Shown piece by piece: positions 862 through 53,842 of a stretch of DNA of 64,000 nucleotides (positions within the stretch are counted from its first letter, which is position 1; each line of letters begins with the position of its first letter). The position numbers and the translations under genes were made by a program. This DNA is from Oceanicoccus sagamiensis. GTDB taxonomy: Bacteria; Pseudomonadota; Gammaproteobacteria; Pseudomonadales; Dasaniaceae. The notes under the pieces are model-generated. The model had not been told where the DNA came from. It saw nothing but the letters and a program-made list of their open reading frames with translations, and searched no databases. Location of the stretch: NCBI RefSeq assembly GCF_002117105.1, contig NZ_CP019343.1, forward strand, positions 4,092,001-4,156,000. Direction: 5' to 3'.

Positions 862-932
862 TCAATTAAGGTGCGCTATATTAGCAAACCCCAACGGTGC
901 TGTCTGCCCCGCAGAGGCTTAAATACCCAGCC

Positions 933-1763: not shown

Positions 1764-1797
1764 TGGCGACAGGCAACAAGGTTAATAGGCATCATTT

Positions 1798-1831
1798 AAA
1801 AAAAAACGCCAAACTGCTTGGCAATCTGGCG
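1798..1831 (-). terminator. Rho-independent terminator downstream of fimV
   Basis: On the minus strand a 7-bp stem (CGCCAGA with TTTGGCG, one G-T pair) closes an 11-base loop and is followed directly by nine T residues. It lies 40 bases past the fimV stop and before the truA start. Confidence 0.75.
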
Positions 1832-1871
1832 CTGTATTGTAGTGAATAGTGGCTACAGATAATAGCTGCGA

Positions 1872-12403: not shown

Positions 12404-12500
12404 AATCCGCCGAAATGGCGATTTTATCCACGCTAGTGTTTTTTTCTGTCAGAAGTTAGAATCATCGCAAGACAATAAGACCCTTAGACGGAGCAGACCC

Positions 12501-13082: not shown

Positions 13083-13101
13083 TTCGCTCTTTAACAAGCA
13101 T

Positions 13102-13130
13102 AAAAAAAAGCCGCATAAGCGGCTTTTTTT
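13102..13130. terminator. Bidirectional terminator between FHA gene and TonB receptor gene
   Basis: A-tract, GCCGC, loop ATAA, GCGGC, T-tract: a 12-bp stem that gives a U run in both directions, lying between two convergent genes. Confidence 0.9.
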
Positions 13131-13147
13131 ATGGCTGGACTTACCCC

Positions 13148-37739: not shown

Positions 37740-37902
37740 TTAGAAACTCTCCACAAAAAGGAAGACAAAAACAATATATATCAATAAGATAAAGACAATA
37801 CTTAAAGTAGAAATCAACAAAAACAGGGATTATAAAAACCCCAAGATTCGTTTATTATCCAATGCACAGCATGACACGATAGCCTGTTAACTGTCTAGCT
37901 TT

Positions 37903-37920
37903 TGAATGAACAATCATTCA
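37903..37920. promoter_or_regulatory. Putative TetR (BetI-like) operator, site A
   Basis: TGAATGA-ACAA-TCATTCA is a perfect 7-bp inverted repeat with a 4-base spacer, in the 271-bp region between the divergent TetR and flavin-oxidoreductase genes. A second site with identical arms and spacing precedes the TonB receptor gene at 51.3 kb. Confidence 0.7.
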
Positions 37921-38010
37921 TTTATTGCTATCAAAAACCATCTATATTATGGTCACTATAGCTAACATTTGCAGCACCACTCAATCGGGTAGACGGAGCC
38001 ACAAACATAT

Positions 38011-38658
38011 ATGCAAGACGCAGATAGCAGCACCAGTAAAACTGCCAAACCCGCTACCAAGCGGCGAGCCATGTCAAAGGAGGATCGCCGCGAGCAGCTG
38101 ATTAAGGCCACTATTAAATGCATTGCCAATAAAGGCTTGTCTGGCACTACGATGGCTGATGTTACCGGTGAAGCGGGTTTAAGTCTGGGTATTGTCAACC
38201 TGCATTTTCAAAGTAAAGAAAAATTACTGATTGAAACCCTGCGCTATGTCACTGACGAATATAATCAGGGGCAGGCCCGCATTATGGCCGGCCATGGTGA
38301 TACGGCAGCAAAAATTAAAGAACTGGTCGAGTTTGATTTTAGTGCCAGGATTTGCCAAAAAAATAAACTGGCCGTTTGGTTTGCCTTCTGGGGTGAAAGC
38401 CGGTCCCGCCCCACCTATCAGTCCATTTGCTCACACTCTGATATCGAAACCGAGACTGCTATTACTGAACTCTATCAACAGGCGATTAACGAACAGGGCT
38501 ATCAGGATGTTGATGTTGATCTGGTCTCTACCGGTTATACCGCACTCTGTGATGGACTCTGGTTAGACCTGCTGCTAACCCCTGCCCTGCTCAGCCGTGA
38601 AAAGGCGAAAATGATTGCCTACAATTATTTATCCAGCTTTTTCCCCAGACATATTTAA
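38011..38658 (+). CDS. TetR-family regulator, BetI-like
   Basis: The 215-aa protein has an N-terminal TetR helix-turn-helix (about 25-72, SKEDRREQLIKATIKCIANK, then TMADVTGEAGLSLGIVNLHF) and a C-terminal domain resembling BetI (KLAVWFAFWGESRSRPTYQ, LCDGLWLDLLL). BetI answers to choline, so an inducer that is a quaternary or methylated amine is a fair inference. It is the first gene of the plus operon (3 bases from the binding-protein gene) and sits next to operator site A, so autoregulation and control of both divergent operons are expected. Several in-frame ATGs exist near the start. Confidence 0.88.
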   Translation: MQDADSSTSKTAKPATKRRAMSKEDRREQLIKATIKCIANKGLSGTTMADVTGEAGLSLGIVNLHFQSKEKLLIETLRYVTDEYNQGQARIMAGHGDTAAKIKELVEFDFSARICQKNKLAVWFAFWGESRSRPTYQSICSHSDIETETAITELYQQAINEQGYQDVDVDLVSTGYTALCDGLWLDLLLTPALLSREKAKMIAYNYLSSFFPRHI

Positions 38659-38661
38659 ACC

Positions 38662-39771
38662 ATGAGCCAAAACCTACTAACAATCCTTCTTACTCGCTGG
38701 CTGATTATCTGTAGCTTACTGTGCAGCAGCCAAGCCTATAGTGATGATGCCGCGGTGGTTAATATTTATAATTGGTCTGACTACATCGACCCTGAAGTTC
38801 TGAAAATCTTTGAACAGGAATACGGCATCAAGGTTAATTACGATATTTACGACTCCAGCGAGATTGTTGATACCAAATTAATGACTGGCCGATCTGGCTA
38901 CGATGTCGTGGTTCACTCCGCCTCTTTTTCCGCCAGACTAAAACCGATTGGCGTATACCATGCCATCGACTATAGCCGCTTAACTAACTGGCACCATATT
39001 GATCCTTTGATTGTCGACGCTATTCAGGACCACTTTCCCGGCAAAATGGTCGGCGTCCCTTATATGTGGGGCACCACGGGCTTTACTTATAATGTGGACC
39101 TGATTAAGCAACGTATGCCGGACGCTCCACTGGATAGCTATCAACTGTTGTTTGACCCCGAGGTGGTATCGAAATTTGCGGACTGCGGTATCTCGCTACT
39201 GGATGACCCCACTACAGTTATTCCCTCTGCCATGCTGTATCTGGGTTACCCACCCAACTCCGTTGAACCCACTCATTTAAAAGAAGCCGAAGAGCTACTA
39301 AAAGCTATTCGCCCCTATATTAAATATTTTAGCTCCACCAAAATGTTATTGGATTTACCCAGTGAAGAAGTCTGTATTGCGATGAGCTGGTCGGGTGATT
39401 ACTCCGTCGCCTCTACCCGCGCCGCCGAGGCTGGGCTGGATGTCAAACTCGCCTATATCATGCCCAAAGAAGGTATTACTGACTGGTATGACAATATGTA
39501 TATTCCGGCGGATGCACCCCATCTGGATAACGCCTATCTATTTATCGACTTCCTACTACGACCGGAGATTATTGCCAGGTCCAGTAATTATGTGGGCTAT
39601 GCCAATGCCAACAAAAGCGCCACACCTTTAGTCGATCCTTCGATTACCAGTGACCCGGCTATATACCCAGATAAAGAAGTGATGAAAAGAATGCACCCCA
39701 CACAAATACTGCCGCCCAAACTGGAGCGCCGCCGCTCCAGAACCTGGACCAAAGTAAAAACCGGCTTATAA
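38662..39771 (+). CDS. Periplasmic putrescine/spermidine-type binding protein (PotF/SpuD family)
   Basis: The 369-aa protein has a signal peptide (about 1-27, cleavage near SQAYS) and the PotF-like ligand motifs NIYNWSDYI, AMSWSGDYS and YIPADAPH, which correspond to the aromatic and acidic residues that hold the amine in PotF. It supplies the ABC importer encoded by the next three genes. The exact amine is not determined, and some C-terminal residues differ from PotF. It starts 3 bases after the TetR gene. Confidence 0.9.
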   Translation: MSQNLLTILLTRWLIICSLLCSSQAYSDDAAVVNIYNWSDYIDPEVLKIFEQEYGIKVNYDIYDSSEIVDTKLMTGRSGYDVVVHSASFSARLKPIGVYHAIDYSRLTNWHHIDPLIVDAIQDHFPGKMVGVPYMWGTTGFTYNVDLIKQRMPDAPLDSYQLLFDPEVVSKFADCGISLLDDPTTVIPSAMLYLGYPPNSVEPTHLKEAEELLKAIRPYIKYFSSTKMLLDLPSEEVCIAMSWSGDYSVASTRAAEAGLDVKLAYIMPKEGITDWYDNMYIPADAPHLDNAYLFIDFLLRPEIIARSSNYVGYANANKSATPLVDPSITSDPAIYPDKEVMKRMHPTQILPPKLERRRSRTWTKVKTGL

Positions 39772-39790
39772 CACCGAGATATCTGTAACT

Positions 39791-40966
39791 ATGAGTGCCA
39801 GCGATCCACAACAAGAAAAAGACTATAGCGAAACACCCTGGCTTGACCCCAATGCCAAGCCATTTATTCAGATACAGTCGCTCAGTAAACAGTTTGATGA
39901 TTTTACTGCCGTCGACAATATCAGTCTGGATATTTATCAGGGAGAACTGTTCACCATTCTGGGCGGCTCTGGCTGTGGCAAATCGACCTTGCTGCGTATG
40001 TTGGCAGGTTTTGAAAAACCCAGTGATGGCCGCATTATTATCGACGGCGTTGATATGACTGACCTCCCCGCTTATGAACGCCCCATTAATATGATGTTTC
40101 AATCCTATGCGGTATTCCCGCATATGACGGTTGAGAAAAACATTGCCTATGGCCTTAAGAAAGACAAAGTCGACAAAGCAGAGATTCAACGCCGCGTCAC
40201 AGAGATGTTAGAGCTGGTGCAACTGACTGACTATGCCAAACGCAAACCCGACCAGCTATCCGGCGGTCAACGCCAGCGGGTGGCCCTGGCCAGAGCCCTG
40301 ATCAAACGCCCCAAAGTTTTATTATTAGACGAACCGCTGGCGGCACTGGATAAAAAACTGCGAGAGCAAACCCAATTTGAGCTGATGAACCTGCAATATA
40401 AATTGGGCACTACCTTTATTGTGGTCACCCATGATCAGGAAGAAGCGATGACGCTGGCATCCCGGATAGCGGTGATGGACAAGGGCAACTTTGTACAAAT
40501 CGGTACACCCTCGCAGGTTTATGAATACCCCAGCAATCGTTTTGTGGCCGACTTTTTTGGCACTATCAATATTTTTGATGCTACGGTCATTAGTAATAAA
40601 ACCATTCCGAACAGTGCCAGCGAGTTGCTATTAACCGCCGAACTCGATAAGACCGGCACCCTGGTCAATGCTAGAAATCAGCTAACACTCTGCCCTAATG
40701 ACCGTATTGCGATTGGTGTCAGGCCGGAAAAAATCAGTATCAGCCAACAAGCCCCGGAAGGTGAAAGCCTTACTATCACCAAAGGTATTGTTGAAGACCT
40801 GGCCTATTATGGCAACCGTTCTATCTACCGGGTGCGCAGTCAATCAGGGCGAGTCATTCAAGTTAGCGCGCAAAATTATCAGCGTTCAGCAGAACTCGTC
40901 CTGGAGTGGGATGACGAAGTGTATTTATCCTGGGACTCCAGTTGCAGCGTGGTACTCGCCGAATGA
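39791..40966 (+). CDS. Polyamine-type ABC transporter ATP-binding protein (PotA/PotG)
   Basis: The 391-aa ATPase has Walker A GGSGCGKST at about 58-66, the signature LSGGQRQRVALARAL, Walker B VLLLDEPLAALDK, and the C-terminal TOBE regulatory domain. The length and TOBE domain fit PotA/PotG. It energises import through the two permeases that follow; the permease gene starts inside its stop codon (ATGA). Confidence 0.93.
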   Translation: MSASDPQQEKDYSETPWLDPNAKPFIQIQSLSKQFDDFTAVDNISLDIYQGELFTILGGSGCGKSTLLRMLAGFEKPSDGRIIIDGVDMTDLPAYERPINMMFQSYAVFPHMTVEKNIAYGLKKDKVDKAEIQRRVTEMLELVQLTDYAKRKPDQLSGGQRQRVALARALIKRPKVLLLDEPLAALDKKLREQTQFELMNLQYKLGTTFIVVTHDQEEAMTLASRIAVMDKGNFVQIGTPSQVYEYPSNRFVADFFGTINIFDATVISNKTIPNSASELLLTAELDKTGTLVNARNQLTLCPNDRIAIGVRPEKISISQQAPEGESLTITKGIVEDLAYYGNRSIYRVRSQSGRVIQVSAQNYQRSAELVLEWDDEVYLSWDSSCSVVLAE

Positions 40967-41880
40967 GCAACTCACCCAGTAAACTTAGCAGCTCCCGCTT
41001 AGGTGATAAGCTTTGGCGGCTCGCTGTTATTATGCTGCCGTACTGGTGGCTAATTATTTTCTTTTTAGTACCCTTTGCGATTGTTTTTAAAATCAGCTTT
41101 GCCGACCCGGTCGTGGCGCAACCTCCCTTTACCGATTTTTTTAATACCACGGATAACAGCAAAGGCTGGCTATTAGCCACACTCGATAATTACCGTTTTC
41201 TCACTGAAGATAATCTATATTGGGTCAGCTATTTAAAATCCATTAAAGTAGCCCTGATCTCAACACTGCTCTGCTTACTCCTGGGCTACCCAATGGCCTA
41301 TGGTATTGCCCGTTCTACACCGGTCATGCGCAATATTTTATTAATGCTGATTATTCTGCCTTTCTGGACCTCGTTTTTACTCAGGGTTTACGCCTGGATG
41401 GGAATGCTGGGTAAAAATGGCTTAATCAATAATCTGCTACTCAGCCTGGAACTGATCGAAACCCCTCTGGAAATGCTCTATAGCGATGCCGCGGTTTATG
41501 TGGGTATTGTCTACACCTATATTCCCTTTATGATTTTGCCGCTATACGCCACGCTGGAAAAACTTGATCTGAATTTACACGATGCCGCCGCCGACCTCGG
41601 TGCCAAACCCTGGCAAGTATTTGTCGATATCACACTACCCCTGTCTATGCCGGGTATTATTGCGGGCTCGCTATTGGTATTTATTCCAGCCCTTGGCGAA
41701 TATGTTATTCCGGCATTACTGGGGGGCATTGATTCGCTGATGATTGGCCGCACGCTTTACGATGAATTTTTTGTTAACCGCGATTGGCCGCTCGCCTCCG
41801 CCGTGGCCACGGTTTTATTATTAATTATTGTGATTCCTATTGTACTGTTCCAGCGCAGCCAACAGGAGGAAATGCAATGA
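40963..41880 (+). CDS. Polyamine-type ABC transporter permease (PotB/PotH)
   Basis: The 305-aa protein has six membrane spans and the EAA loop LHDAAADLGAKPWQVFVDITLPLSMPGI typical of binding-protein-dependent permeases; residues such as YTYIPFMILPLYATLEKLD fit PotB/PotH. The start at 40963 overlaps the ATPase stop. The next permease start overlaps its own stop (ATGA). Confidence 0.92.
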   Translation: MSNSPSKLSSSRLGDKLWRLAVIMLPYWWLIIFFLVPFAIVFKISFADPVVAQPPFTDFFNTTDNSKGWLLATLDNYRFLTEDNLYWVSYLKSIKVALISTLLCLLLGYPMAYGIARSTPVMRNILLMLIILPFWTSFLLRVYAWMGMLGKNGLINNLLLSLELIETPLEMLYSDAAVYVGIVYTYIPFMILPLYATLEKLDLNLHDAAADLGAKPWQVFVDITLPLSMPGIIAGSLLVFIPALGEYVIPALLGGIDSLMIGRTLYDEFFVNRDWPLASAVATVLLLIIVIPIVLFQRSQQEEMQ

Positions 41881-42688
41881 ACGGCAGAAAACGCTCAACC
41901 TTTTTATTCTCCGTACTGTGCTTTGGTTTTGCTTTTTTATATGTTCCGATACTGGTACTGATCGCTTTTTCCTTCAATGATTCCCGCCTGGCTACCGTTT
42001 GGGGGGCTTTTCTACCCGCTGGTACAGCGCCCTGTTTGAAAACGAACAGATACTGGATGCCGCCCTACTTAGCTTTGAAGTCGCGGCTATTAGCGCCACC
42101 TTTGCCACCCTTCTTGGTACACTAACAGGTCTGGCACTAACCCGAATGGGGCGCTACCCCGGCCGCTTGATTTTTACCGGTTTGATAGCAGCACCACTGG
42201 TTATGCCGGAAGTGATTACCGGCCTATCCTTATTGTTGTTGTTTGTTAGCCTGCAAGAATTTATCGGCTGGCCGGTTAGCCGGGGGGCCACCACCATCAC
42301 CATTGCCCACATAACTTTTTCCATGGCCTATGTCGCCGTGATTGTGCAATCGCGATTAAGCAGTATGGATAAATCATTAGAAGAAGCCGCGATGGATTTG
42401 GGAGGGCGCCCCTTTCAAGTGACATGGGATATTACGCTGCCCTTAATTGCTCCAGCGATGCTATCAGGCTGGCTGCTTGCCTTTACATTATCTCTGGATG
42501 ATTTGGTGATCGCCAGCTTCACCTCTGGCGCCGGTGCCAGCACCTTGCCCATGGTGATATTTTCAAAAGTAAAACTGGGAGTTACTCCGGATATTAATGC
42601 ATTGGCCACGCTCATTATCAGCGCTGTGGCTATCGGCGTCATTATCGCGGGAATTATTATGTTTAAACAGCAAAAAACCACTCAATAG
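41877..42688 (+). pseudogene. Polyamine-type ABC transporter permease (PotC/PotI), frameshifted
   Basis: The first part reads MNGRKRSTFLFSVLCFGFAF and SFNDSRLATVWGAF, then shifts; the second frame continues GFSTRWYSALFENEQILDAA and carries the EAA loop SLEEAAMDLGGRPFQVTWDI. In PotI the joined text is VW-(A/G)GFSTRWY, which needs seven G where the sequence has six (42001-42006). One G is therefore missing. The remaining sequence is intact and the pairing with the other permease is complete, so a sequence error, recent loss or slippage are all possible. The start overlaps the preceding stop. Confidence 0.85.
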
Positions 42689-42695
42689 GCGGATT

Positions 42696-44096
42696 ATGTC
42701 TTACTCACTACCAGGCCCCAAAAGCAAAGCCATTTTTGAACGCGGCTTAAGTACATTGCGACATGGTTCCCGCTACACCAAAGCGGCGGCGCAATCAGCC
42801 GCCAAAGGCTATCTGCCCCCGGCACAAATTATTGTCGACCGCGCCGCCGGGGATTTTATCTGGGACAGTGATGGCAATCGCTTTATTGATTTTCAAAATG
42901 GCTGGGCCACCAACCCACTGGGTAATTGTCATCCGGAAATTATTGAAGCGGTGCATCAGGCTCACCAACGCTATGGCTATCACTGGGAGCACCCGCTGCG
43001 TGCAGAGCTGGCAGAAAAACTGGTCGGCATTATGCCCGACAGTTCATTGTCACGCTTCTCCTATGAAGTGTCCGGCACTGAAGCGGCTGAGTCGGCTATT
43101 CATCTGGCACTCTGCCATAAGCAACGGCGCTATATTATTAGCTTTACTTCCTGTTTTCATGGTGAAGGGCTGGGTACAAAAATGGTCAGCGCCTATAACA
43201 GTGATAATAATAAATTTATGGAAGGCTGGGCTGGCGGCGTAATTAAAGCCCCCTACCCTTACTCGGAAAATATTCCGGCTGGAATGACACAAGAACAATA
43301 TGTCGAATACTGCCTGTGGTATCTGGAAAACCATATCACTGACTTTATAACCCCCGCCGATAATATTGCAGCGGTGATTATTGAGCCCGGATTAGCCGAG
43401 GGCGGCAACTGGATTCCCAGTAAAGATTTTATCCAGGGCATTCGCCGTATCTGCAACAATCATGACTGGCTAATGATTGCTGATGAAGTATTAACCGGCG
43501 TCGGTCGCACCGGTAAAATGTGGGGCATCCAGCACTACGATGTCACACCGGATATTCTGGTCGCAGGCAAAAACCTGTCCGGAGGCATAGAGCCCTGTGC
43601 TGGCGTGGCCGCCCGTGATGAGATTCTCGGGGATAATCCCAGAGCTACCGCTGGCAGCACCTTTGCAGGCACACCCGCAGGCTGCGCCGCAGCACTAAAA
43701 ACACTGGAAATTTATCAGCGTGACAATATTATCGACCATGCTGAGAAGCTGGGCACCATCGCGCAACAACGTATGGCAAACTGGCAAAGCCAATATGGTA
43801 TTGTCGGAGAAGTGCGCAGCCTGGGCTTATTGTTAGGGGTTTCCTTTAAAGCTGAAAAAGCCCAAGAGGAAGATTTTTATATCGCCCGCTCGGTCAGAAA
43901 CCATATGCTTAACCACGGAGTTTGGGCTATTTGCGATTCGGAGCCCACAGTAAGAATGTACCCGGCACTGAATATGGCAGAGGCCAACCTATTAGAAGGT
44001 CTGGATATTATGGAAGCAGCCATTGCCGAGATTGATAACAACGGAGCAACGGTCGGCGACTACCCGCCACTACCCAGCGGCAATACCGGCTTTTAA
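42696..44096 (+). CDS. Class III aminotransferase (second one)
   Basis: The 466-aa PLP enzyme starts at the ATG at 42696 (AGGCGG upstream; the open frame extends further without support). Motifs: FENGWATNPLGNCHPE-type N-terminus, SGTEAAESAIHLAL, IADEVLTGVGRTGKMWG and the PLP lysine in VAGKNLSGGIEP. It is close to the glutamate-1-semialdehyde/4-aminobutyrate-like aminotransferase group and differs from the first aminotransferase of the locus. A role in removing an amino group from the imported compound or a breakdown product is inferred. Confidence 0.88.
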   Translation: MSYSLPGPKSKAIFERGLSTLRHGSRYTKAAAQSAAKGYLPPAQIIVDRAAGDFIWDSDGNRFIDFQNGWATNPLGNCHPEIIEAVHQAHQRYGYHWEHPLRAELAEKLVGIMPDSSLSRFSYEVSGTEAAESAIHLALCHKQRRYIISFTSCFHGEGLGTKMVSAYNSDNNKFMEGWAGGVIKAPYPYSENIPAGMTQEQYVEYCLWYLENHITDFITPADNIAAVIIEPGLAEGGNWIPSKDFIQGIRRICNNHDWLMIADEVLTGVGRTGKMWGIQHYDVTPDILVAGKNLSGGIEPCAGVAARDEILGDNPRATAGSTFAGTPAGCAAALKTLEIYQRDNIIDHAEKLGTIAQQRMANWQSQYGIVGEVRSLGLLLGVSFKAEKAQEEDFYIARSVRNHMLNHGVWAICDSEPTVRMYPALNMAEANLLEGLDIMEAAIAEIDNNGATVGDYPPLPSGNTGF

Positions 44097-44118
44097 TTTA
44101 ACCACAAGGTAACATTGT

Positions 44119-45036
44119 ATGAGCACTCAAAGCGGCGACGATTATCCTAATACTTATGGCAATATTTTTTCGTTTATGGATTTTCCTTTAAGCAAAACCT
44201 TAGCGGATGATATCGATGCCGTGGTGATGGGCATCCCCTATGACCTGGCTACGACTGGCCGCTCCGGCACCCGCTTTGGCCCTAACGCTATTCGTCAGGC
44301 CTCCGCTCAATTGCGCTGGGAACAGCGCCGCTGGCCCTGGCACTTCACCCTGGCTGACCGCCTTAAAGTGATTGATTATGGCGATATTATTTATGAAGAC
44401 GGCAATAGTCAGGATCTAACCGCCATGGTAACGGAGCAAGCCGGCGCGATCTTTGCAGCCAATAAAACCCTGTTAAGTTTTGGTGGAGATCACTTTGTTA
44501 CCCTGCCCTTACTCCGAGCTTGCTCGGCTCATTACGGCAAACTCGCCCTGATTCATTTTGATGCCCATACCGACGATGAAGCCCGTGAAGATATTGTTAA
44601 CCACGGCTCAATGTTTTATCACGCTCCCAGAGAAGGGCTGATTGACAGCGAAAAAACGATTCAGGTCGGTATTCGCACGGAATACAATTACGACACCCAT
44701 CCTTTTACCGTATTAGACGGTGTGCAAGCCAATAATTTATCGGTAGAAGATATTATTACCGCCATCAAGGAAACGGTTGGGGAAGGCCCGGTGTATTTAA
44801 GCTTTGATATCGATTGCCTAGACCCTGCCTATGCGCCAGGTACTGGCACACCGGTAGCCGGTGGTATTTCTTCCAGCAAAGCGTTGCAAATTATTCGCGG
44901 ACTGAGCGATATCAATATTGTTGCTATGGATGTGGTCGAGGTTGCCCCCGCTTATGACCGCTCAGAGATAACGGCTCTGGCCGGTGCCACACTGGCGTTG
45001 GAGATGTTATATTTATTGGGTAGCAAAAAAACCTAG
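44119..45036 (+). CDS. Ureohydrolase (agmatinase-like, SpeB family)
   Basis: The 305-aa enzyme has the dinuclear manganese motifs: GGDH (His125), FDAHTDDE (Asp148, His150, Asp152) and SFDIDCLDP (Asp230, Asp232), plus GIPYDLATTGRSGTRFGP. It hydrolyses a guanidino group to urea and amine; agmatine, guanidinobutyrate or another substrate are all possible because the specificity loops cannot be read reliably. It lies 22 bases after the aminotransferase with an AAGGTAAC ribosome site. Confidence 0.9.
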   Translation: MSTQSGDDYPNTYGNIFSFMDFPLSKTLADDIDAVVMGIPYDLATTGRSGTRFGPNAIRQASAQLRWEQRRWPWHFTLADRLKVIDYGDIIYEDGNSQDLTAMVTEQAGAIFAANKTLLSFGGDHFVTLPLLRACSAHYGKLALIHFDAHTDDEAREDIVNHGSMFYHAPREGLIDSEKTIQVGIRTEYNYDTHPFTVLDGVQANNLSVEDIITAIKETVGEGPVYLSFDIDCLDPAYAPGTGTPVAGGISSSKALQIIRGLSDINIVAMDVVEVAPAYDRSEITALAGATLALEMLYLLGSKKT

Positions 45037-45053
45037 AGACACACTGCTAAAAT

Positions 45054-45884
45054 ATGATGTTTAAAAACTATACCCTCCTACTAGCCCTGCTAGCCATCAG
45101 CCATCAAGCTCCTGCGCAGGACAGGTTCAGGCTATCGCTGGGCTCATCGGTTAATGATTTTAATTCTGAAATTCGTGTCGACTCAAAAAATCTGCCAGCA
45201 GCACTGCCAATCAATCTGGAAAAAGACCTAAAGTTTGATGACAGCGTTGATATTGACTGGCTGGCGGGTTACTGGCGTTTTTCCGACAAGCATCGCATTC
45301 AGTTTGAAATACTGCCAATCACTCGCTCGGCCAGAGCCACACTGGAAGACGATATTGAATTTGAAGATGATATTATTAAGGCAGGCGCCTTTGTTAAAAG
45401 CGACTTTGATACCACGATCTACGATATTAACTATATGTATAGTTTTTATAAAACGGATAAATGGGAACTAGGTGCTACCGCCGGCCTCTACTGGATGGAT
45501 GTTGAAGTGGAACTGGAAGCCGCCGGGGATATTCAGGTGCGCACCCGGGACGGCGACGGCGATATTAGTTTTCAAGATGATTACAAAGAAAGTGAGCAGG
45601 CCCATGCTCCCCTGCCCCTGTTCGGTCTATCCGCTACCTATAAGATTTTACCGAACTGGGAGGTAGGCACCGGCTTTCGGATTTTAGATATTGAAATCGG
45701 CGACTACTCCGGTACTTTTATCAGCTTTATCGCCTCCACCAATTACTTTTTTTCCGAGCATCTTGGCGTTGGCTTTTCGATTGGCGACTTTGACCTCGAT
45801 GTCGAAGCCGATGGCTCTGACTATCGAGGCAAGTTTGAATGGAGCTATGAAGGAGCGCAGGCCTACCTGTCTATGCGCTATTAG
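45054..45884 (+). CDS. Outer-membrane beta-barrel protein of the catabolic operon
   Basis: The 276-aa protein has a signal peptide (MMFKNYTLLLALLAISHQAP-AQ) and alternating hydrophobic strands ending in AYLSMRY, whose C-terminal aromatic is typical of outer-membrane proteins. It contains many acidic residues in the loops (LEDDIEFEDD). Position at the end of the operon, after the ureohydrolase with a 17-base gap, suggests a role with the same substrate, as a pore or as a surface structure. ATG at 45054 or 45057 are both possible starts. It overlaps the stop of the convergent aldehyde dehydrogenase gene. Confidence 0.78.
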   Translation: MMFKNYTLLLALLAISHQAPAQDRFRLSLGSSVNDFNSEIRVDSKNLPAALPINLEKDLKFDDSVDIDWLAGYWRFSDKHRIQFEILPITRSARATLEDDIEFEDDIIKAGAFVKSDFDTTIYDINYMYSFYKTDKWELGATAGLYWMDVEVELEAAGDIQVRTRDGDGDISFQDDYKESEQAHAPLPLFGLSATYKILPNWEVGTGFRILDIEIGDYSGTFISFIASTNYFFSEHLGVGFSIGDFDLDVEADGSDYRGKFEWSYEGAQAYLSMRY

Positions 45885-47371
45885 TACTCGATCCAGGTGG
45901 TTTTTAATTCGGTATAATCATCAAAGGCATGGATAGATTTATCACGGCCATTACCAGACTGCTTAAAACCACCAAAGGGCACGGTCATATCACCGCCAAA
46001 ATAATTATTAACGCCCATGGTACCGACACGCACCTCTTCCGCAACACTTAATGCGGTACTAATATCTCTACTCCATACCGCGCCAGCCAGCCCAAAGATA
46101 GAATCATTAGCGATCTGCACCGCTTCTTCTTTGGAACTAAATGGAATGACCGACATAACTGGCCCAAAAATTTCTTCCTGTGCAACGCGCATCTGATTAT
46201 TTACACCGGTAAATATAGTCGGCTGATGGAAATAACCGCCGGTCTCTTCCATTACTCTCTCACCACCATAAACACAGCTTGCCCCTTCCCCATTGCCAAT
46301 GGCAACATAGTCAGCGGTGGTTCGATATTGACCTTCATCAACTAACGGTCCCATTGAGGTTGCGGGGTCCAGCGGATTACCCGGCTTCCAGTCTTCACTG
46401 GCAGCCATCACCTTTTCCATAAACTCATCGTGGATTGTTTCTTCAACCAATAAGCGAGTCCCCGCAGTACAGGTTTGACCGCTATTATAAAAGACGGCTG
46501 TTGCTGCCATCCCTGCCGCCGCATCCAGATCCGCATCGGCAAAAATAATATTCGGGCTTTTACCACCCAATTCTAAAAAGGTTCGCTTTAGATTTGACTG
46601 ACCGGAGTATTCCATTAACTGCTTACCTACCGGCGTAGAACCGGTAAAGGTTTGGCCGTCAATATCCATATGCAGGGCTAAGTGTGAACCCAACTTGCCA
46701 CCGGGTCCCGGCAGCACATGCAATACACCATCGGGTAAACCGGCCTCACTGGCTAGTTCGGCAATACGCAATGCCGTAAGCGGCGTGTTAGATGCAGGTT
46801 TTACAATCACAGAATTACCGGTCGCCAGTGCTGGCGCTACTTTCCAGGCGGTGGTCGACAATGGAAAATTCCAGGGTACGATGGCCGCGACAACCCCTAG
46901 CGGTAAGCGGCTAACCAGTGCCAGAGTACCATCGGGTGTCGGCGCAATTTGCTCATAGACTTTATCAATGGCTTCACCACTCCAGCGAATACAGCGTGAA
47001 GCCCCAAAGGCATCGACATTAAGCGTATCGGAAATGGGCTTGCCCACATCCAGACACTCCAGCAGAGCCAACTCATAAGCGTGCTTATCAATCAGCTCTG
47101 CCCAGCGCACCAGTACCATCTTACGGTCCGAGGGCGCCATCTTTGACCACACCCCGGACTCAAAAGCCTTGCGGGCACTGCTGATAGCCAGGTCTGCATC
47201 CTCAGCACCACAGCTGGCAACATCCGCCAGAGCCTGACCTGTAGCAGGGTTAATCGTAGGACGGGTTGCGCCGGAAAGTGCATCCACATAGCGGCCATTA
47301 ATAAAGGCTCGACCCTCTATTTTGATAGTCTCTGCCCGCGCCTGCCAATCGGCCAAGGTTAAATCACTCAT
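45881..47371 (-). CDS. Aldehyde dehydrogenase (PuuC / gamma-glutamyl-aminobutyraldehyde dehydrogenase-like)
   Basis: The 496-aa NAD(P)-dependent enzyme has VPWNFPL, FTGSTPVGK, ELGGKSPNI with general base Glu267, and the nucleophile Cys301 in NSGQTCTAG. The ATG at 47371 (AGAGG 6 bases upstream) is preferred; the open frame extends to 47473. It resembles PuuC and betaine-aldehyde-type dehydrogenases, both of which fit a locus for amine breakdown. It converges on the operon of the importer and ureohydrolase, and may have its own promoter shared with no other gene. Confidence 0.92.
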   Translation of the reverse strand: MSDLTLADWQARAETIKIEGRAFINGRYVDALSGATRPTINPATGQALADVASCGAEDADLAISSARKAFESGVWSKMAPSDRKMVLVRWAELIDKHAYELALLECLDVGKPISDTLNVDAFGASRCIRWSGEAIDKVYEQIAPTPDGTLALVSRLPLGVVAAIVPWNFPLSTTAWKVAPALATGNSVIVKPASNTPLTALRIAELASEAGLPDGVLHVLPGPGGKLGSHLALHMDIDGQTFTGSTPVGKQLMEYSGQSNLKRTFLELGGKSPNIIFADADLDAAAGMAATAVFYNSGQTCTAGTRLLVEETIHDEFMEKVMAASEDWKPGNPLDPATSMGPLVDEGQYRTTADYVAIGNGEGASCVYGGERVMEETGGYFHQPTIFTGVNNQMRVAQEEIFGPVMSVIPFSSKEEAVQIANDSIFGLAGAVWSRDISTALSVAEEVRVGTMGVNNYFGGDMTVPFGGFKQSGNGRDKSIHAFDDYTELKTTWIEY

Positions 47372-47632
47372 AGCTGCCTCTGATCTGTTTCCGGTTAGTG
47401 GTAGTGTTTTTATATGGCAGCTATCATACACGCAGGGCCATCTATAAAGCAGAGATATTATCCTTAAAAACACGCATTTTCAGGCTTTTATAGGATAAAT
47501 GTCACGAAAGCAGAATCTATCACCAGACCGGATAACAATATCGGTTAAAACACCTTGGGTCATGGTTTAAGGGCCAAGCCCGTGATAGCATTTGCGCATT
47601 ATAAAAGACAAAGATAAGAGCCTGTTTTCTCT

Positions 47633-49639
47633 ATGTTACCCACTGAAATCACCAAAGCGACCTTTGAAGAAGCCCTGCAATTAATTAATAACGGCAAGCT
47701 GCAACCAGCCATTGCCTTATGCCAGCGAGCACTGGAAAGAACCCCTGACGATATCAATATGACAGCGTTACTTGGCGCTGTTTTTTTGCAATCCAATAAC
47801 TACCAAGCCGCTGAAGACTATCTCAAGAAAGCCATCGATCTGGCCCCGGCTTTTGCCAAACCCCATGAAGACCTGGGTATTCTGCTGGTCAATCTAAAGC
47901 GCGAAGAGGAAGCCATTCCTCTATTACAAAAAGCGGTGCGACTGGACCCATCACTGGAATCTGCCAATTTTAATCTGGGCAAGGCGCTGGCCGCCTGTGG
48001 CCGGGGAGCCGAAGCCGATAAAGCCTATGAGGCCGCCTTTGATTTAAACCCGGAAAGAAAAGCCATGGCAATGGCTGCCGAACATCACCGCCGTGGCGAA
48101 GACGATAAAGCGGAACAGCTATACCGCCAAGTACTGCAAAAGAACCCACAGAATGTGGATGCTATGCGACTGTTAGCCCTGCTTGCCTGCAACGCCAGCC
48201 ACTTTGATGATGCAGAACGCATGCTACGTAAAGCGATTGATATTGCACCCGATTTTTTAGGCGCTTATATGGATTTGGGTAAAATCCTAAAAGATATGGA
48301 CCGCCTCGAGGAAGCCATCGACTGTTTTAGACGATCCGTTGCTCTGGCGCCCAATAATTTTAAACCACAAATGCAGTTGGCCAGTGCATTGGCACCGGCG
48401 GCATTAAATATTGAAGCGGTAACGGCTCACCAGCGAGCCCTGGAAATTACTCCCAATCACCCGGGTGCCCTGCTCGGCCTCGGCCACGCCCTGAAAACCG
48501 CAGGCAGACAAGCCGAAGGCATAGAAGCCTATGAGCAATGCATTAAAGTACGCCCCGACAATGGCGAAACCTACTGGAGTCTGGCCAACTTAAAAACCTA
48601 TACCTTCCGCGATGACCAGATTGAAGAAATGGAACAGCGGGTGCGCACGGAAGGGCTGGACCCCAATGCAGAAATTAATTTTCTGTTTGCACTGGGCAAG
48701 GCCTATGAAGATAGAAAAGACTATACAAAGTCCTGGCAGTACTATGAAGAAGGCAATGAAAAGCAGCGTATGTCGGTTGGCTATGACCCGGTACTGACTG
48801 AAGTGCAAAATACCGATATTATCAATACCTTCTCCAAAGAATTTTTTGACAGCCATAAAGGTATGGGTAACCCGGACCCTTCGCCTATTTTTATTTTGGG
48901 TCTACCCCGCTCCGGGTCCACCTTACTGGAACAGATTATCGCCAGCCACTCTATGGTGGAAGGCACCAGTGAGCTACCTTATCTTGGCCGCATTGCCACC
49001 TCCATGAACCGCAATCGCGCCGATGGTATTAATTACCCGGAAGCCGTATTGGAACTAAAAGACAAACACTTTGACCAACTGGGCGAAAAGTATTTACAAA
49101 AAGCCAAAATGCATCGAATAGAAGGCAAGCCGTTTTTTATCGATAAAATGCCCAATAACTTTCCCAATATTGGCCTGCTGCATAGCATTTTACCCAACGC
49201 CAAAATTATTGATGCTCGTCGGCATCCGCTGGATAGCTGTTTTGGTAACTTTAAACAGCTGTATGCCAAAGGCCAAAATTTCACCTATGACCTGTCTGAT
49301 ATCGGCGAATACTTTTTACAGTACCAGCGCATGATGGACCATTGGGATGAGGTATTGCCGGGCAGAGTACTGCACTGTCAGTATGAAGATACCGTTAACG
49401 ATTTGGAAAATCAGGTTAAACGCATTCTTGAATATTGCGGCCTGCCCTGGGAAGACGGCTGCGTTAATTACCACCAGAATGATCGCGTGGTTCGCACTGC
49501 CAGCTCGGAACAGGTGCGCCAACCTATTTATAACAAGAGTATTGGCACCTGGCGCCGCTACGAATCAGAGTTGGATGAATTACTTGATGTGCTAGAGCCG
49601 GTTTTACCGCTCTATGAAAAATATATGCCCAATCAATAG
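47633..49639 (+). CDS. TPR-containing sulfotransferase
   Basis: The 668-aa protein has about ten TPR units in residues 1-340 (for example AIALCQRALERTPDDINMTA and AEDYLKKAIDLAPAFAKPHE) and a C-terminal PAPS-dependent sulfotransferase domain (about 415-660). The 5'-phosphosulfate loop is FILGLPRSGSTLLE at about 420-432 and the 3'-phosphate motif is near DARRHPLDSCFGNF. No signal peptide, so it acts in the cytoplasm on an unknown substrate, probably a protein or polysaccharide precursor recognised by the TPRs. It precedes a convergent propeller gene with a 7-base overlap. In other marine bacteria these proteins are often found near TonB receptors (general knowledge, not checked). Confidence 0.9.
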   Translation: MLPTEITKATFEEALQLINNGKLQPAIALCQRALERTPDDINMTALLGAVFLQSNNYQAAEDYLKKAIDLAPAFAKPHEDLGILLVNLKREEEAIPLLQKAVRLDPSLESANFNLGKALAACGRGAEADKAYEAAFDLNPERKAMAMAAEHHRRGEDDKAEQLYRQVLQKNPQNVDAMRLLALLACNASHFDDAERMLRKAIDIAPDFLGAYMDLGKILKDMDRLEEAIDCFRRSVALAPNNFKPQMQLASALAPAALNIEAVTAHQRALEITPNHPGALLGLGHALKTAGRQAEGIEAYEQCIKVRPDNGETYWSLANLKTYTFRDDQIEEMEQRVRTEGLDPNAEINFLFALGKAYEDRKDYTKSWQYYEEGNEKQRMSVGYDPVLTEVQNTDIINTFSKEFFDSHKGMGNPDPSPIFILGLPRSGSTLLEQIIASHSMVEGTSELPYLGRIATSMNRNRADGINYPEAVLELKDKHFDQLGEKYLQKAKMHRIEGKPFFIDKMPNNFPNIGLLHSILPNAKIIDARRHPLDSCFGNFKQLYAKGQNFTYDLSDIGEYFLQYQRMMDHWDEVLPGRVLHCQYEDTVNDLENQVKRILEYCGLPWEDGCVNYHQNDRVVRTASSEQVRQPIYNKSIGTWRRYESELDELLDVLEPVLPLYEKYMPNQ

Positions 49640-50547
49640 GGCCATACTTCCAGACCGTGGATTGCATTGCGAATATCCATAGTCAGGTTAACTGTCTTAA
49701 CGGTTTTCAAGCGATCAAAGTCGTGCAATGCAATGGTTGAGGGAGACGAACCCGCCGCCACCAAACCACCACCGAGCTCACACAAACCACGGCCAAAACC
49801 CGCCCGAGCTATCCGGGAGTCATCCAGCTTGGCATGGGTTAACTGGCCAGGATCAAACTGAGGCACTTCAAAGCTGAATTGTTGCTCCTGCTCGATATAG
49901 CGCACCCGGTCTGTGGCGGTATCATTATATAAAACCCCCTCGCGAAACGGTCTGGCATTGTGGATACCGGTGGGCAAACGCGCATAACGCTGAATGGTTT
50001 TACCGTTAAACATATACAGCGCTTTGGTTCGCAGGCCGCTAAAGAACAAACCTTTGCTGCTACAGAAAACATTATTAACATGTAAGGTATTGCTTGGGGC
50101 TGGCCCTTTTTCCGATTTGGGGTCAAAGGGCCTGCCTTGTACCTGCCCCTCGATATCCACCAGGTGCAAGCCAAAACAAAATTCATTGTTATCCAAATCA
50201 AAACCAAGAATAGCGTCAAACCCGGTCGAGGTTATATACAGGCGACGCTTATGTACCATAATTTCGTGTGCATGCATCAAATAAGGGCATTTATAGGAGG
50301 CGATTTTTTTAAACTGCGGTGTATAAACAAATATCTCATTACTGGCCGCAATAAAAACCCGATCACCATCAAAGGCAATACCCCGCAAGCCCCGGTCCCA
50401 ACCTCTGCCCTGCCAATCGATATCGGTCGTATTCCAGTCAATAACCTGATTAACCGCCTCACGATCAAAATCTATTAAATACACTCCACCATGGCTTTCA
50501 CCCTGGTTACTGCCGCGAACCACCGAGGTGGCAATTAGTTTGCTCAT
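49633..50547 (-). CDS. Beta-propeller protein of unknown function
   Basis: The 304-aa protein shows repeating beta-strand patterns of a propeller (GGVYLIDFDREAVNQVIDW, GIAFDGDRVFIAASNEIFVY, AHEIMVHKRRLYITSTGFDA, NVFCSSKGLFFSGL), without a signal peptide, resembling SMP-30/YncE or TIGR03032-like proteins. I chose the ATG at 50547, giving a 10-base gap to the upstream hydroxylase-like gene; an ATG at 50586 would overlap it. The placement suggests joint action with the hydroxylase and perhaps with the sulfotransferase. Confidence 0.7.
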   Translation of the reverse strand: MSKLIATSVVRGSNQGESHGGVYLIDFDREAVNQVIDWNTTDIDWQGRGWDRGLRGIAFDGDRVFIAASNEIFVYTPQFKKIASYKCPYLMHAHEIMVHKRRLYITSTGFDAILGFDLDNNEFCFGLHLVDIEGQVQGRPFDPKSEKGPAPSNTLHVNNVFCSSKGLFFSGLRTKALYMFNGKTIQRYARLPTGIHNARPFREGVLYNDTATDRVRYIEQEQQFSFEVPQFDPGQLTHAKLDDSRIARAGFGRGLCELGGGLVAAGSSPSTIALHDFDRLKTVKTVNLTMDIRNAIHGLEVWPY

Positions 50548-50557
50548 AGGGACGTCT

Positions 50558-51109
50558 TTATGATTGTGACGGAGGAATATAGTCAAAGATAAAGGTGATT
50601 CTACCCTCTTTACCTTTATTCATAACGCTGTGCTGTTTTTGGTTGTTGATTTCATAGGCATGACCCACCTCAAATTTATAGGGTCTGCCATCAATCATAA
50701 AACGCACTCTGGGGTTGGTGGTAATGGGGATATGGATACGGTGGCCAGCGTGAAAAGACGGATGCGCATCTCTATGGGGCTTGATAATACCGCCGGGAAT
50801 TAATTTAGCCGCCATCGCACGAATAATGGTACCCCCTGGCTGATAGTGCTGCTTGATAATGTCATGCATTAAGGGAATGGCCACCTCAGATAGAAGGTCC
50901 CAGCCCGCCTCTTTGCTAACCTCAATATTCGGCCAACCGGAGCCATCGGTAAATATCAGCACGATCGATTCGGTCAGGGTGTGAACATCATATTGTTGCT
51001 GACGATAGGTATTGGACTTCCAGAGCTCTTCATCCAGCGCCAAAATTGCATCACTTAATGCAGTTTGATCTACCGGACCCAAGTCTTTAAGGGGAACTTC
51101 GATATCCAT
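50558..51109 (-). CDS. Aspartyl/asparaginyl beta-hydroxylase-like 2-oxoglutarate dioxygenase
   Basis: The 183-aa protein has a double-stranded beta-helix with the iron ligands His112-x-Asp114 (KPHRDAHPSF) and His160 (NNQKQHSVMN) in ATG numbering, and an Arg-containing strand (NPRVRFMIDGRP) for 2-oxoglutarate. The family hydroxylates Asp/Asn side chains or small molecules. I placed the start at the ATG at 51109; a TTG two codons upstream is the alternative. It diverges from the TonB receptor and is followed by the propeller gene, so the two may be one operon. Confidence 0.85.
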   Translation of the reverse strand: MDIEVPLKDLGPVDQTALSDAILALDEELWKSNTYRQQQYDVHTLTESIVLIFTDGSGWPNIEVSKEAGWDLLSEVAIPLMHDIIKQHYQPGGTIIRAMAAKLIPGGIIKPHRDAHPSFHAGHRIHIPITTNPRVRFMIDGRPYKFEVGHAYEINNQKQHSVMNKGKEGRITFIFDYIPPSQS

Positions 51110-51266
51110 AGGCAACCTTTATTATTAGCAGAGCGGAGAACGATAAAGTTCTAGTGGATAACAGTCAACCGCCAGCAGACAGGTAATCGTTCTGAATTAG
51201 TTATTTAAAAGAAGATATTCTCCTTAAAATAGTATGCAACGCTATCTTCTCCGTAAGGTTTTCGAC

Positions 51267-51295
51267 TTGGCTACACATCGCTATTTAACTATAAA
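51267..51295 (+). promoter_or_regulatory. Putative sigma-70 promoter of the TonB receptor gene
   Basis: TTGGCT (51267-51272), 17 bases, then TATAAA (51290-51295). The predicted start falls at about 51302, inside the operator palindrome. Confidence 0.55.
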
Positions 51296-51298
51296 AAA

Positions 51299-51318
51299 AT
51301 GAATGACGGTTCATTCAT
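51299..51318. promoter_or_regulatory. Putative TetR (BetI-like) operator, site B
   Basis: ATGAATGA-CGGT-TCATTCAT: a perfect 8-bp inverted repeat with a 4-base spacer, sharing the TGAATGA-N4-TCATTCA core with site A at 37903-37920. It overlaps the predicted transcription start of the receptor gene, the position expected for a repressor. Confidence 0.7.
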
Positions 51319-51406
51319 AAAAATATCGATTTAGCTATTGGCATTTAAGTTGCTATCGTATACGATCGGAAAAAACCTGGAATACTATAAAAATAGAGAC
51401 CGCCCA

Positions 51407-53842
51407 ATGAACAATAAGACGCCGTCTGTTAGCCCAGTTCCATTTCGCAGAAAAGTACTTAGCGTGGTTATTTCAAGCGCTATCTTAGGCATCCAAGCCT
51501 CTCATGCCCAAGTGCTGGAAGAAGTGATTGTTACTTCAACCAAGCAACTGCAAAACATTCAGGATATTCCACAGGCGATTACCGCTTTTACCACCGAAGA
51601 TATCGAGCGCCGTGGTTTTGTGGATATCGACGATTATGCCAAAGCGATTCCCAGCCTGTCATTTTCACGACGTGAACCCGGTGGTACTTCCGTAGTTTTC
51701 CGGGGTGTTGCTGCCTCCGGCATCCAGTTCAATACCAACCCTTCCAGCTCTGTGTATCTCGATGAACAACCCGTTACATCGGCCGGTGTTAACCCTAACC
51801 CACGGATGATCGACATTGAGCGTCTGGAAGCACTGAGCGGACCACAGGGTACTTTATTTGGTGATGCATCCCAATCTGGTGCATTACGTATCATTACCAA
51901 CAAGCCCAATACCGGTCAGTTTGAAGCCTGGGTTGAAGTGGGCGGTGCTTATGTCGAGCACAGTGACGACTACGATACCGATATCAGCGCAATGGTTAAT
52001 ATCCCCATAAGCGAAAATGTTGCACTGCGTTTAGTTGGCTTTAGTTCAGAAGAAGCGGGTTATGTAGACAATGTACTGGGGTCAAGCCAGCCAGATGCCT
52101 ATCTGCAAAACCGCATTGATGGCGGCTTTGACGTTGGTACGCCTTTCGACAACGCCAAGCAAGTTGATAAAGACGTTAACTCCGGCAGTGCCTATGGCGG
52201 CCGCGCCAATCTACGTATTGAACCCAACGACGACTGGATTATAGATTTAACCGCTATTTTCCAAAACACCGAATCTGATGGTTTTAGTGATACTGACTTT
52301 AATGCCGGTTCTTTAGAGCAAATTCGTTTTAATGAAGAAACCAGTGAAGACGAATGGTACCAGCTAGGTATTAACCTTGAAGGTGACCTGGGCTTTGCTG
52401 AGACCGTAGTCTCCCTCTCCTATTTTGACCGTGACTGGCGCTATGACGCCGATGCCACAGACTACCTGTTTGCCTTTGACCAGATTTATGACCCCACCTA
52501 TGTCAGCTACTACGGTTATACCACCAGTATTTATGACTTTAATGGCACCCCAAGAGCCAATGCCTTCAATGCTGAAAAAGATGAGCGCTGGAGCTTTGAA
52601 GCGCGCCTCGCTTTTGAAGATCAAGATGAAGGTCGCTGGAATGCCATAGTAGGTACTTTCTATAACAAGACTGAAAAAGAGACCAGCTTTGGCTCATTGG
52701 TCGATGGTTATGGTGATACCCCTGCGGCTTACTACCTGAACTACACCACGTACACACCGTCACTGAATAATCTCCCTGCCGGTAGCTGGTATGGCACCAC
52801 CAATGACACTTGGTTCTTTGGCGAGTACGACCAAACCATTGAAGATCTGGGTGTATTTGGTGAAGGTAACTACGATGTTACTGAGAAATTTACTGTAACG
52901 CTGGGTGGTCGCTGGTATAAGAACGAACGTGAGTTCTCGATTCTACAAGGTAGCCTGCAACAGGCAGGGACACCGAGTTTCGATACGGACTATATCTCCA
53001 ATATCGGTGATACCGAGTCTGACGAAACCGGCTTTGTGCCCAAAGTCAGCGTCAAGTATCAGGTTGACGATGATAAGCTAGTCTACGGTACTTACTCTGA
53101 GGGTTTCCGAAGTGGTGGCGGTAATGCGGTAAGGCCATCCTCGGTTATTGATAATGGCTATGACTCCGATTATCTGATCAACTATGAACTCGGCGCCAAA
53201 ACGACATGGCTAAACAACGCCCTGAGATTTAATGTGATTGTCTACCATATGATATGGGAAGATATACAGATACAGGTCGAAGATCCTCAAGTCGATGTCT
53301 TCTCGACGGGTATTGTTAACTTCCCCGAGGCTGAGATCGATGGTATCGAATTCGATATTGCCTGGGCTGCGGCAGAGCGATTAGAACTGTCTATGAACTA
53401 TGCCTATGTGGATGCAGCTATCTCCGAAGATGCCACCATCTTTGAAGATACCGGCACCGCACTGGAAGTCAGCGAGGGTACCCAATTACCCATCACCCCT
53501 GACCATAAAGGCGCATTTTCCGCTGAATACTTCTTTGCTCAACCGATACTGGGCGGTGATGTTTACGCCAGACTGGACTATGCCTATGTCGGTAAATCCG
53601 TTAACTCCCTCTCCGGTTTTGGGGCCACCAGTTTTATCTCTGAACCAACAGAGCAGGAGTCTTACGAAACCATTGACCTGAAACTCGGTTATGACAATGA
53701 CGACTGGAGCGCTTCTCTGTATGTGAAAAATCTCACCGACGAAGAAGTTACTCTCTATGCCAGTGATCGCTGGGTTAAACAACGAAGATCGGTGAATAAG
53801 CCAATGAGCGTTGGCTTCTCGATAAGGCGAAACTTCGACTAA
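51407..53842 (+). CDS. TonB-dependent outer-membrane receptor (second one)
   Basis: The 811-aa receptor has a signal peptide (ATG at 51407; cleavage near SHAQ), the TonB box LEEVIVTS, a plug domain (about 45-160; DIPQAITAFTTEDIERRG, RLEALSGPQGTLFGDASQSG) and a long beta-barrel. An upstream TTG at 51338 would extend the frame by 23 residues but lies close to the operator and lacks a ribosome site. Control by a site like that of the amine locus suggests that it imports the same compound or a larger carrier of it (inference). A strong bidirectional terminator follows. Confidence 0.92.
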   Translation: MNNKTPSVSPVPFRRKVLSVVISSAILGIQASHAQVLEEVIVTSTKQLQNIQDIPQAITAFTTEDIERRGFVDIDDYAKAIPSLSFSRREPGGTSVVFRGVAASGIQFNTNPSSSVYLDEQPVTSAGVNPNPRMIDIERLEALSGPQGTLFGDASQSGALRIITNKPNTGQFEAWVEVGGAYVEHSDDYDTDISAMVNIPISENVALRLVGFSSEEAGYVDNVLGSSQPDAYLQNRIDGGFDVGTPFDNAKQVDKDVNSGSAYGGRANLRIEPNDDWIIDLTAIFQNTESDGFSDTDFNAGSLEQIRFNEETSEDEWYQLGINLEGDLGFAETVVSLSYFDRDWRYDADATDYLFAFDQIYDPTYVSYYGYTTSIYDFNGTPRANAFNAEKDERWSFEARLAFEDQDEGRWNAIVGTFYNKTEKETSFGSLVDGYGDTPAAYYLNYTTYTPSLNNLPAGSWYGTTNDTWFFGEYDQTIEDLGVFGEGNYDVTEKFTVTLGGRWYKNEREFSILQGSLQQAGTPSFDTDYISNIGDTESDETGFVPKVSVKYQVDDDKLVYGTYSEGFRSGGGNAVRPSSVIDNGYDSDYLINYELGAKTTWLNNALRFNVIVYHMIWEDIQIQVEDPQVDVFSTGIVNFPEAEIDGIEFDIAWAAAERLELSMNYAYVDAAISEDATIFEDTGTALEVSEGTQLPITPDHKGAFSAEYFFAQPILGGDVYARLDYAYVGKSVNSLSGFGATSFISEPTEQESYETIDLKLGYDNDDWSASLYVKNLTDEEVTLYASDRWVKQRRSVNKPMSVGFSIRRNFD

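Follow-up and report, generated by a model that had tools for sequence, protein, structure and literature searches.

A palindrome shared by a BetI-like TetR gene and a TonB receptor gene as a candidate operator pair in Oceanicoccus sagamiensis

Results

We analyzed a 64,000-nucleotide stretch of the Oceanicoccus sagamiensis genome (contig NZ_CP019343.1, positions 4,092,001 to 4,156,000; hereafter the window, numbered from its first letter), in which two intergenic regions carry a palindrome with identical arms. One copy adjoins a gene for a TetR-family regulator with a BetI-type C-terminal domain, and the other precedes the gene for a TonB-dependent outer-membrane receptor. Comparison with related genomes suggests that both palindromes are very probably operators of this TetR protein, which would control a small local regulon. 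The features concerned are as follows.

37903..37920, no strand: candidate operator 1, TGAATGA-ACAA-TCATTCA, separating the flavoprotein operon from the divergently oriented tetR-pot operon
38011..38658, + strand: P0001, a TetR-family regulator that is proposed to bind operators 1 and 2; scores above cut-off for PF00440 and for PF13977, the BetI-type C-terminal domain
50558..51115, - strand: aspartyl/asparaginyl beta-hydroxylase-like gene (PF05118), divergent from the TonB gene across operator 2
51300..51317, no strand: candidate operator 2, TGAATGA-CGGT-TCATTCA, separating the Asp/Asn hydroxylase-like gene from the divergently oriented TonB receptor gene
51407..53842, + strand: TonB-dependent outer-membrane receptor P0002 (PF00593, PF07715)

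Both palindromes have the form TGAATGA-N4-TCATTCA, with identical 7-bp arms and a 4-bp spacer whose letters are not alike (ACAA in operator 1, CGGT in operator 2). The sequence thus confirms the original prediction of two intergenic sites with common arms and spacing. That prediction had placed the second site at 51299-51318; the core of this interval stands (the exact match is 51300-51317), with its two outer bases adding another complementary A/T pair. Outside the palindromes, no similarity between the two regions is obvious by eye, so the sites do not look like parts of a duplicated segment.

The exact motif occurs twice in the 4,472,079-base genome, against about 0.02 copies expected from an independent-base estimate, and a reversed control pattern does not occur at all. 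Both copies are those of the window; the genome-wide search, proposed earlier as a check, gave no further exact copy. The window holds 73 perfect 7+7 palindromes (spacer 0-10), among which only this pair has arms and spacing in common, and none of 60 Markov shuffles produced a matched pair more than 200 bp apart. The earlier statement that 14 matching bases are improbable by chance is borne out by these numbers. Sites with one or two mismatches number nine more in this genome, five within long open frames and four outside; at up to three mismatches the motif barely exceeds the control (159 versus 122). A weight matrix was derived from 38 different TetR-side sites, all from other genomes and none from the TonB side; its top two non-overlapping hits in the window were operators 1 and 2 (29.4 and 22.0; the next reached 9.9).

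The protein encoded at 38011-38658 is a TetR-family member. It carries the DNA-binding domain (PF00440, TetR_N; 41.1 bits against a cut-off of 24), and its AlphaFold model (pLDDT 92.5, 43 aligned sequences as input) is all-helical, with nine helices. The leading fold matches of the model are TetR-type regulators; 3e7q ranks first and HapR/SmcR-type proteins are among the nearest.

Searches of 244 related genomes, the O. sagamiensis genome counted in, revealed eight orthologs of this protein (48-62% identity) and 15 more distant matches (29-36%). The palindrome adjoins all eight orthologs with at most one mismatch; at up to two mismatches it adjoins none of the 15 distant homologs, within flanks of about 1.5 kb or less. 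The exact motif is present in 4 of the 9 genomes with a TetR ortholog, versus 6 of the 235 without one (Fisher p = 1.7e-4).

A scan of named genomes with a nine-ortholog alignment gave a second set of 80 TetR loci, the best 80 of 246 relatives; seven of them are the same records as orthologs from the 244-genome set, and many are cut by contig or flank ends. Judged by record titles, this clade covers Halieaceae, SAR92/Porticoccaceae, Dasania, Luminiphilus, Woeseiaceae and other gammaproteobacterial lineages. The palindrome lies within 500 bp upstream of TetR, with up to two mismatches, in 77 of the 80 loci, compared with 11 of 3606 random 500-bp windows from the same loci. By mismatch count, 39 loci have an exact site, 31 have one mismatch, seven have two and one has three; two are without a site. 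Because of this excess over the control, the absence next to distant homologs and the way in which the exact motif tracks the ortholog, these alignments point with high confidence to the palindrome as a probable operator for this clade of TetR proteins.

Upstream of TetR in L123, L127, L131, L172 and L173, the operator can be read in two overlapping registers offset by 4 bp, as in TGAATGAATGATCATTCATTCA; they could leave room for two dimers. In genome G209, which has no TetR ortholog, two exact copies of TGAATGAATGATCATTCA lie 4.3 kb apart (L068 and L071; G209:C1:3685130 and 3689444). Each sits inside a long open frame, and the two encoded proteins look similar.

Operator 2 was assessed in the linked TonB homologs. 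The best or near-best TonB homologs share a contig with the TetR ortholog in seven of eight relatives, about 6 to 28 kb apart. We examined 20 linked homologs in the 80 loci, counting only those with an alignment starting within the first 60 residues. Using the TonB-free matrix, a site was found 84-100 bp upstream of four of the 20: L114 (Dasania, the same as G009), L120, L165 and L193. Mismatch counting adds G008, where a site with two mismatches lies about 108 bp upstream. The TonB-side sites are exact in L120, L165 and L193, and have two mismatches in L114 as in G008. Outside O. sagamiensis, the TonB-side operator is therefore present in five genomes, roughly 80-110 bp before the start codon. 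The joint arrangement, an operator before both the regulator/catabolic genes and the receptor, recurs in G000, G008, G009, L120, L165 and L193.

One further locus, L141, was rejected as a TonB site: its 2-mismatch palindrome is some 1.8 kb upstream of the TonB match, and no site was found in the 350 bp nearest to that match. In six same-genus genomes (G001-G006), two of whose assemblies are under 95% complete, TetR is absent at the threshold used; TonB homologs are weak in two of them (at most 36%) and missing at E 1e-60 in the other four. Eight PDB sequences matched the receptor weakly, mostly siderophore and colicin/pesticin receptors, which gave no clue to its ligand. A TPR-sulfotransferase, a 317-aa protein without a family match and the Asp/Asn hydroxylase-like gene (window 47633-51115) accompany the TonB gene and the TetR locus in several loci.

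Functional annotation of the genes on either side of operator 1 suggests enzymes of an amine-type catabolism on the left and an importer on the right. FAD denotes flavin adenine dinucleotide, ABC an ATP-binding cassette and TMAO trimethylamine N-oxide.

36123..37739, - strand: FAD-dependent oxidoreductase A (FlavA), CrtI/CrtO-like by homology, first gene of the left operon
34559..36136, - strand: FAD-dependent oxidoreductase B (FlavB), CrtI/CrtO-like by homology
33363..34562, - strand: GcvT-like folate-dependent aminomethyltransferase, closest in NCBIfam to the C-terminal half of TMAO demethylase
31962..33353, - strand: glutamine-synthetase-like (GS-like) ligase, closest in NCBIfam to gamma-glutamylputrescine synthetase and to type III ligase, each match scoring below cut-off
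30684..31934, - strand: Rieske oxygenase; nearest in PDB 3vca (ring-hydroxylating dioxygenase) and 4qup (monooxygenase; demethylase)
38662..42688, + strand: PotFGHI-type polyamine ABC importer, four open reading frames (38662-39771, 39791-40966, 40942-41880 and 41999-42688), the start of the last uncertain
42597..44096, + strand: class III aminotransferase, start uncertain
44119..45036, + strand: agmatinase, above the NCBIfam agmatinase cut-offs; PDB 7lol, E 4e-113

The enzymes of the left operon all fall below NCBIfam cut-offs; the nearest NCBIfam match of the Rieske oxygenase is glycine-betaine monooxygenase. Homologs of at least 40% identity are frequent in the 80 loci for FlavA (75), FlavB (72), GcvT (71), Rieske (50) and PotF (41), followed by the GS-like ligase (31), TonB (14), the window aminotransferase (2) and agmatinase (1). 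The start of potF lies three bases after the tetR stop, which places the inner-membrane importer downstream of the operator 1 control region. In the PotF-like protein (38662-39771), the Trp, Asp and Tyr positions of what we take to be the putrescine pocket of PotF are kept, and Thr-Thr stands where 7oyx (PotF) has Glu-Glu; this substitution hints at a ligand other than plain putrescine. Read most simply, the annotations suggest a methylated amine or polyamine as the substrate, with demethylation preceding oxidation. FlavA and its partners, annotated by homology, could also act on something else.

A further class III aminotransferase closes the left operon (window 29291-30711, - strand); it appears to be split over two reading frames, by a frameshift or a sequencing error, and its C-terminal piece has homologs in L119 and L122. 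Two further FlavA-FlavB-GcvT sets, with 45-66% identity to the window genes, lie on the contig of the TetR locus L107 (G242), at 235-4577 and 10853-15213.

Strong second sites (score 14 or more) are rare, with only seven in the 80 loci. Four precede TonB, and the others precede a GS-like ligase (L144), a PuuC-like aldehyde dehydrogenase (L154) and a thiol-redox protein (L153). Two congeneric species, G008 and G009, also have a second site, with one mismatch, about 270-300 bp before a DAO-family FAD oxidase. The outer members of the regulon seem to vary between genomes, while the theme stays amine-type uptake and oxidation.

We compared the positions of the operators with those of promoters predicted by a simple score. 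The transcription start was taken 7 bp past the -10 element, and operator positions were obtained by arithmetic from the gaps. The predicted promoters in the window are as follows.

37868..37897, - strand: predicted left-operon promoter, -35 TAGACA, 18-bp spacer, -10 CATGCT, with the operator 5 bp upstream of the -35 element
37925..37953, + strand: candidate tetR promoter TTGCTA-N17-TATGGT beside operator 1, found by eye; the scan preferred TTTATT-N16-TATATT from 37921
51338..51366, + strand: predicted TonB promoter TTGGCA-N17-TACGAT, 20 bp past operator 2, score 10.5

The arrangement around operator 1 recurs in the relatives. Towards the left operon, 71 of 78 loci have a T(A/G)GAC element 1-8 bp beyond the operator, compared with 53 of 2370 random 20-mers; in many loci an extended -10 element, such as TGGCATGCT, follows it at 17-18 bp. 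Towards tetR, 63 of 79 loci have their best promoter starting 0-8 bp beyond the operator. At operator 2, TTGGC(A/T)-N17-TAnGnT lies 18-24 bp past the operator in all six genomes; it is the top-scoring promoter in five and the third in L114. A divergent TTGACT-N17 promoter on the hydroxylase side, 15-16 bp from the operator, is found in L120, L165 and L193 and was not seen in the window, L114 or G008. The gap between operator and promoter is 18 bp at the L144 GS-like ligase, and the scan upstream of the L154 aldehyde dehydrogenase gave no clear promoter. The operator before the DAO oxidase of G008 and G009 overlaps the -10 element of TTGACA-N18-TTTAAT.

Measured against the predicted starts, the operator centers lie about 46-54 bp upstream for operator 1 and 60-69 bp upstream for operator 2. 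The original prediction had operator 2 overlapping the start of transcription of the TonB gene. A promoter that would give this overlap is possible (TTGGCT-N17-TATAAA, 8.3), but the better-scoring TTGGCA-N17-TACGAT would place the operator near -65.

Discussion

Our analyses suggest a model in which DNA binding, the nature of the ligand, the extent of the operons and the direction of control are inferred. Operator 1 would lie between back-to-back promoters. Leftward, these would drive a catabolic operon of two FAD oxidoreductases, a GcvT-like enzyme, a GS-like ligase and a Rieske oxygenase; rightward, tetR itself, PotFGHI and the following genes for a class III aminotransferase and an agmatinase. 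Operator 2 would act between the TonB receptor gene and the divergent hydroxylase-like gene. DNA binding by the TetR protein would respond to a pathway metabolite, probably an amine, and outer-membrane uptake, inner-membrane uptake and breakdown would be switched together. The proposal that the TetR protein binds both sites gains support from comparative evidence: the sites at 77 of 80 loci and all eight orthologs, their absence at the 15 distant homologs, and the TonB-side site in five other genomes. With potF directly after tetR, that recurrence also favors the earlier idea of outer- and inner-membrane uptake as one candidate regulon.

Several observations weigh against a regulon of this kind. 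Sixteen of the 20 linked TonB homologs are without a site, including three at 54-55% identity, so the TonB part of the regulon would be lineage-specific; several of the 16, at 31-34% identity, are possibly not orthologs. Away from TetR, the eight relatives together have five sites with no more than one mismatch, versus four control matches, and the case for the DAO-oxidase sites therefore rests on their being common to two close species. The O. sagamiensis homologs of the DAO oxidase (nearest three) and of the L144 ligase (best two of four) have no operator in their flanks, and the four O. sagamiensis sites outside long open frames (L004, L009, L010 and L011; 1-2 mismatches, scores 17.5-19) adjoin unrelated genes. 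On these last two grounds we rejected a wider regulon in this genome. Finally, at L066 (G212), positions 1501-1518, an exact TGAATGAACGTTCATTCA overlaps the start of an unrelated, AcrR-like TetR gene. The palindrome class is thus not exclusive to this TetR clade. The AcrR-like gene neighbors one that resembles an adaptor of the RND (resistance-nodulation-division) type, both named by eye.

The L066 copy, and the same layout in the operator of Bacillus FadR, show this half-site class in use elsewhere, as would be expected if a different regulator with the same half-site bound operator 2 and the match to operator 1 were convergence. We consider this improbable, as the genome has no further exact copy and the site recurs before the orthologous TonB gene, beside this TetR locus, in five other genomes. 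Chance palindromes without function would be in keeping with the AT-rich arms and with the many palindromes of this size class in the window, but such an origin is barely conceivable given the two exact genome copies, the shuffles and the conservation of operator 1, and we rejected chance pairing. A real operator pair serving a small regulon is the credible reading.

How the TetR protein would act at this operator pair is more evenly balanced. Repression is the mode of most TetR proteins, and a classical BetI-like repressor, whose dimers would cover the -35 regions at operator 1 and block the polymerase until a ligand releases them, has about an even chance of being correct. The BetI-type C-terminal domain and the habit of the family speak for it, as do the predicted -35 elements, which most loci have at 0-8 bp from operator 1, close enough to fall in a typical TetR footprint. 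The DAO-oxidase operator over the -10 element fits repression as well. Simple blocking is harder to reconcile with operator 2, which is too far from the recurring TonB -35 element in all six genomes. At these targets the operator stands upstream of the predicted -35 element, which is unusual for a TetR repressor and suits an activator no less well, and it is a real, if tentative, possibility that the same protein is an activator or dual regulator that helps RNA polymerase from upstream of the starts. The consistent placement of promoters just past operator 1 on both sides is compatible with this, as are the recurring gaps at TonB, at three of six divergent promoters and at the L144 ligase. HapR/SmcR-type TetR proteins, near in fold, both activate and repress. 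Against it, the gaps differ by several bases and thus do not preserve helical phase. The TTGGCA promoter of L114 (8.6) scores behind one whose -35 and -10 elements flank the operator (9.0), and the window has its alternative with a start inside the operator. L154 is without a clear promoter, and the DAO-oxidase site is in a repressor position. We lean slightly towards repression relieved by a ligand, put ahead only because of the family habit; activation or dual control is near-equal because of the operator positions.

The conservation reaches wider than the window shows, and a motif sighting becomes a testable regulon with a defined operator and named targets. It also ties an orphan TonB receptor to an amine-type catabolic locus, narrowing the search for what such receptors import in marine bacteria, and the promoter geometry raises the question of positive control by a TetR protein. 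A bolder scenario, which we regard as unlikely, is that the BetI-like TetR protein is a ligand-dependent activator or dual regulator of a full outer-membrane-to-cytoplasm route for N-methylated polyamines in marine Gammaproteobacteria, possibly the methylated long-chain polyamines of diatom silica. Such a route would run through the TonB receptor and the Pot importer to demethylation by Rieske and flavoprotein enzymes with the GcvT-like folate enzyme, followed by gamma-glutamylation and aldehyde oxidation.

Comparison with known systems

Among the matches listed, the open-licence literature gave no account of this operator, locus or regulon, and the operator consensus strings were not found in it. 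Four known systems resemble parts of the locus.

BetI is a choline-responsive TetR repressor, and in the bet gene layout the regulator lies between divergent promoters. The window protein is alike in its TetR fold and PF13977 domain, and its gene also lies between divergent promoters of amine-related genes. It was rejected as a BetI member, with scores below both cut-offs (TIGR03384, 112.3 versus 201.3; NF001978, 109.6 versus 118). The neighbors differ too, being polyamine-importer, flavoprotein, GcvT and TonB genes. Linkage to genes for betaine-aldehyde dehydrogenase (BADH) and choline dehydrogenase is lacking: a Pfam scan of 30 window proteins (17 to 59 kb) found no choline-dehydrogenase domain, and the product of 45881-47473, an aldehyde dehydrogenase, falls short of both BADH cut-offs (500.7 versus 668.6; 462.9 versus 593), its best match being PuuC, also below cut-off.

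Bacillus FadR (YsiA) is a TetR regulator of fatty-acid breakdown with the operator TGAATGAMTANTCATTCA. This operator has the 7-4-7 layout and the arms of the window palindrome, and the protein is similar to the window TetR protein in its N-terminal part (E 1.3e-8). Membership in this family was rejected (NF053878, 34.9 bits against a cut-off of 200), and fatty-acid genes were not recognized at the window locus.

PuuR and PauR, regulators of the gamma-glutamylputrescine pathway, are not TetR proteins; AmvR of Acinetobacter is a member of that family. PuuR and PauR resemble the proposed regulator in the functions governed, namely a Pot importer, a GS-like ligase, an FAD oxidase and a PuuC-like aldehyde dehydrogenase. 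One account describes the puu operons as repressed by PuuR (PMC9397018), and another describes AmvR as an efflux regulator that recognizes spermidine (PMC12077194). AmvR would be alike in recognizing a polyamine. Likened here by description, it governs efflux, whereas the TetR protein of the window would govern uptake and breakdown.

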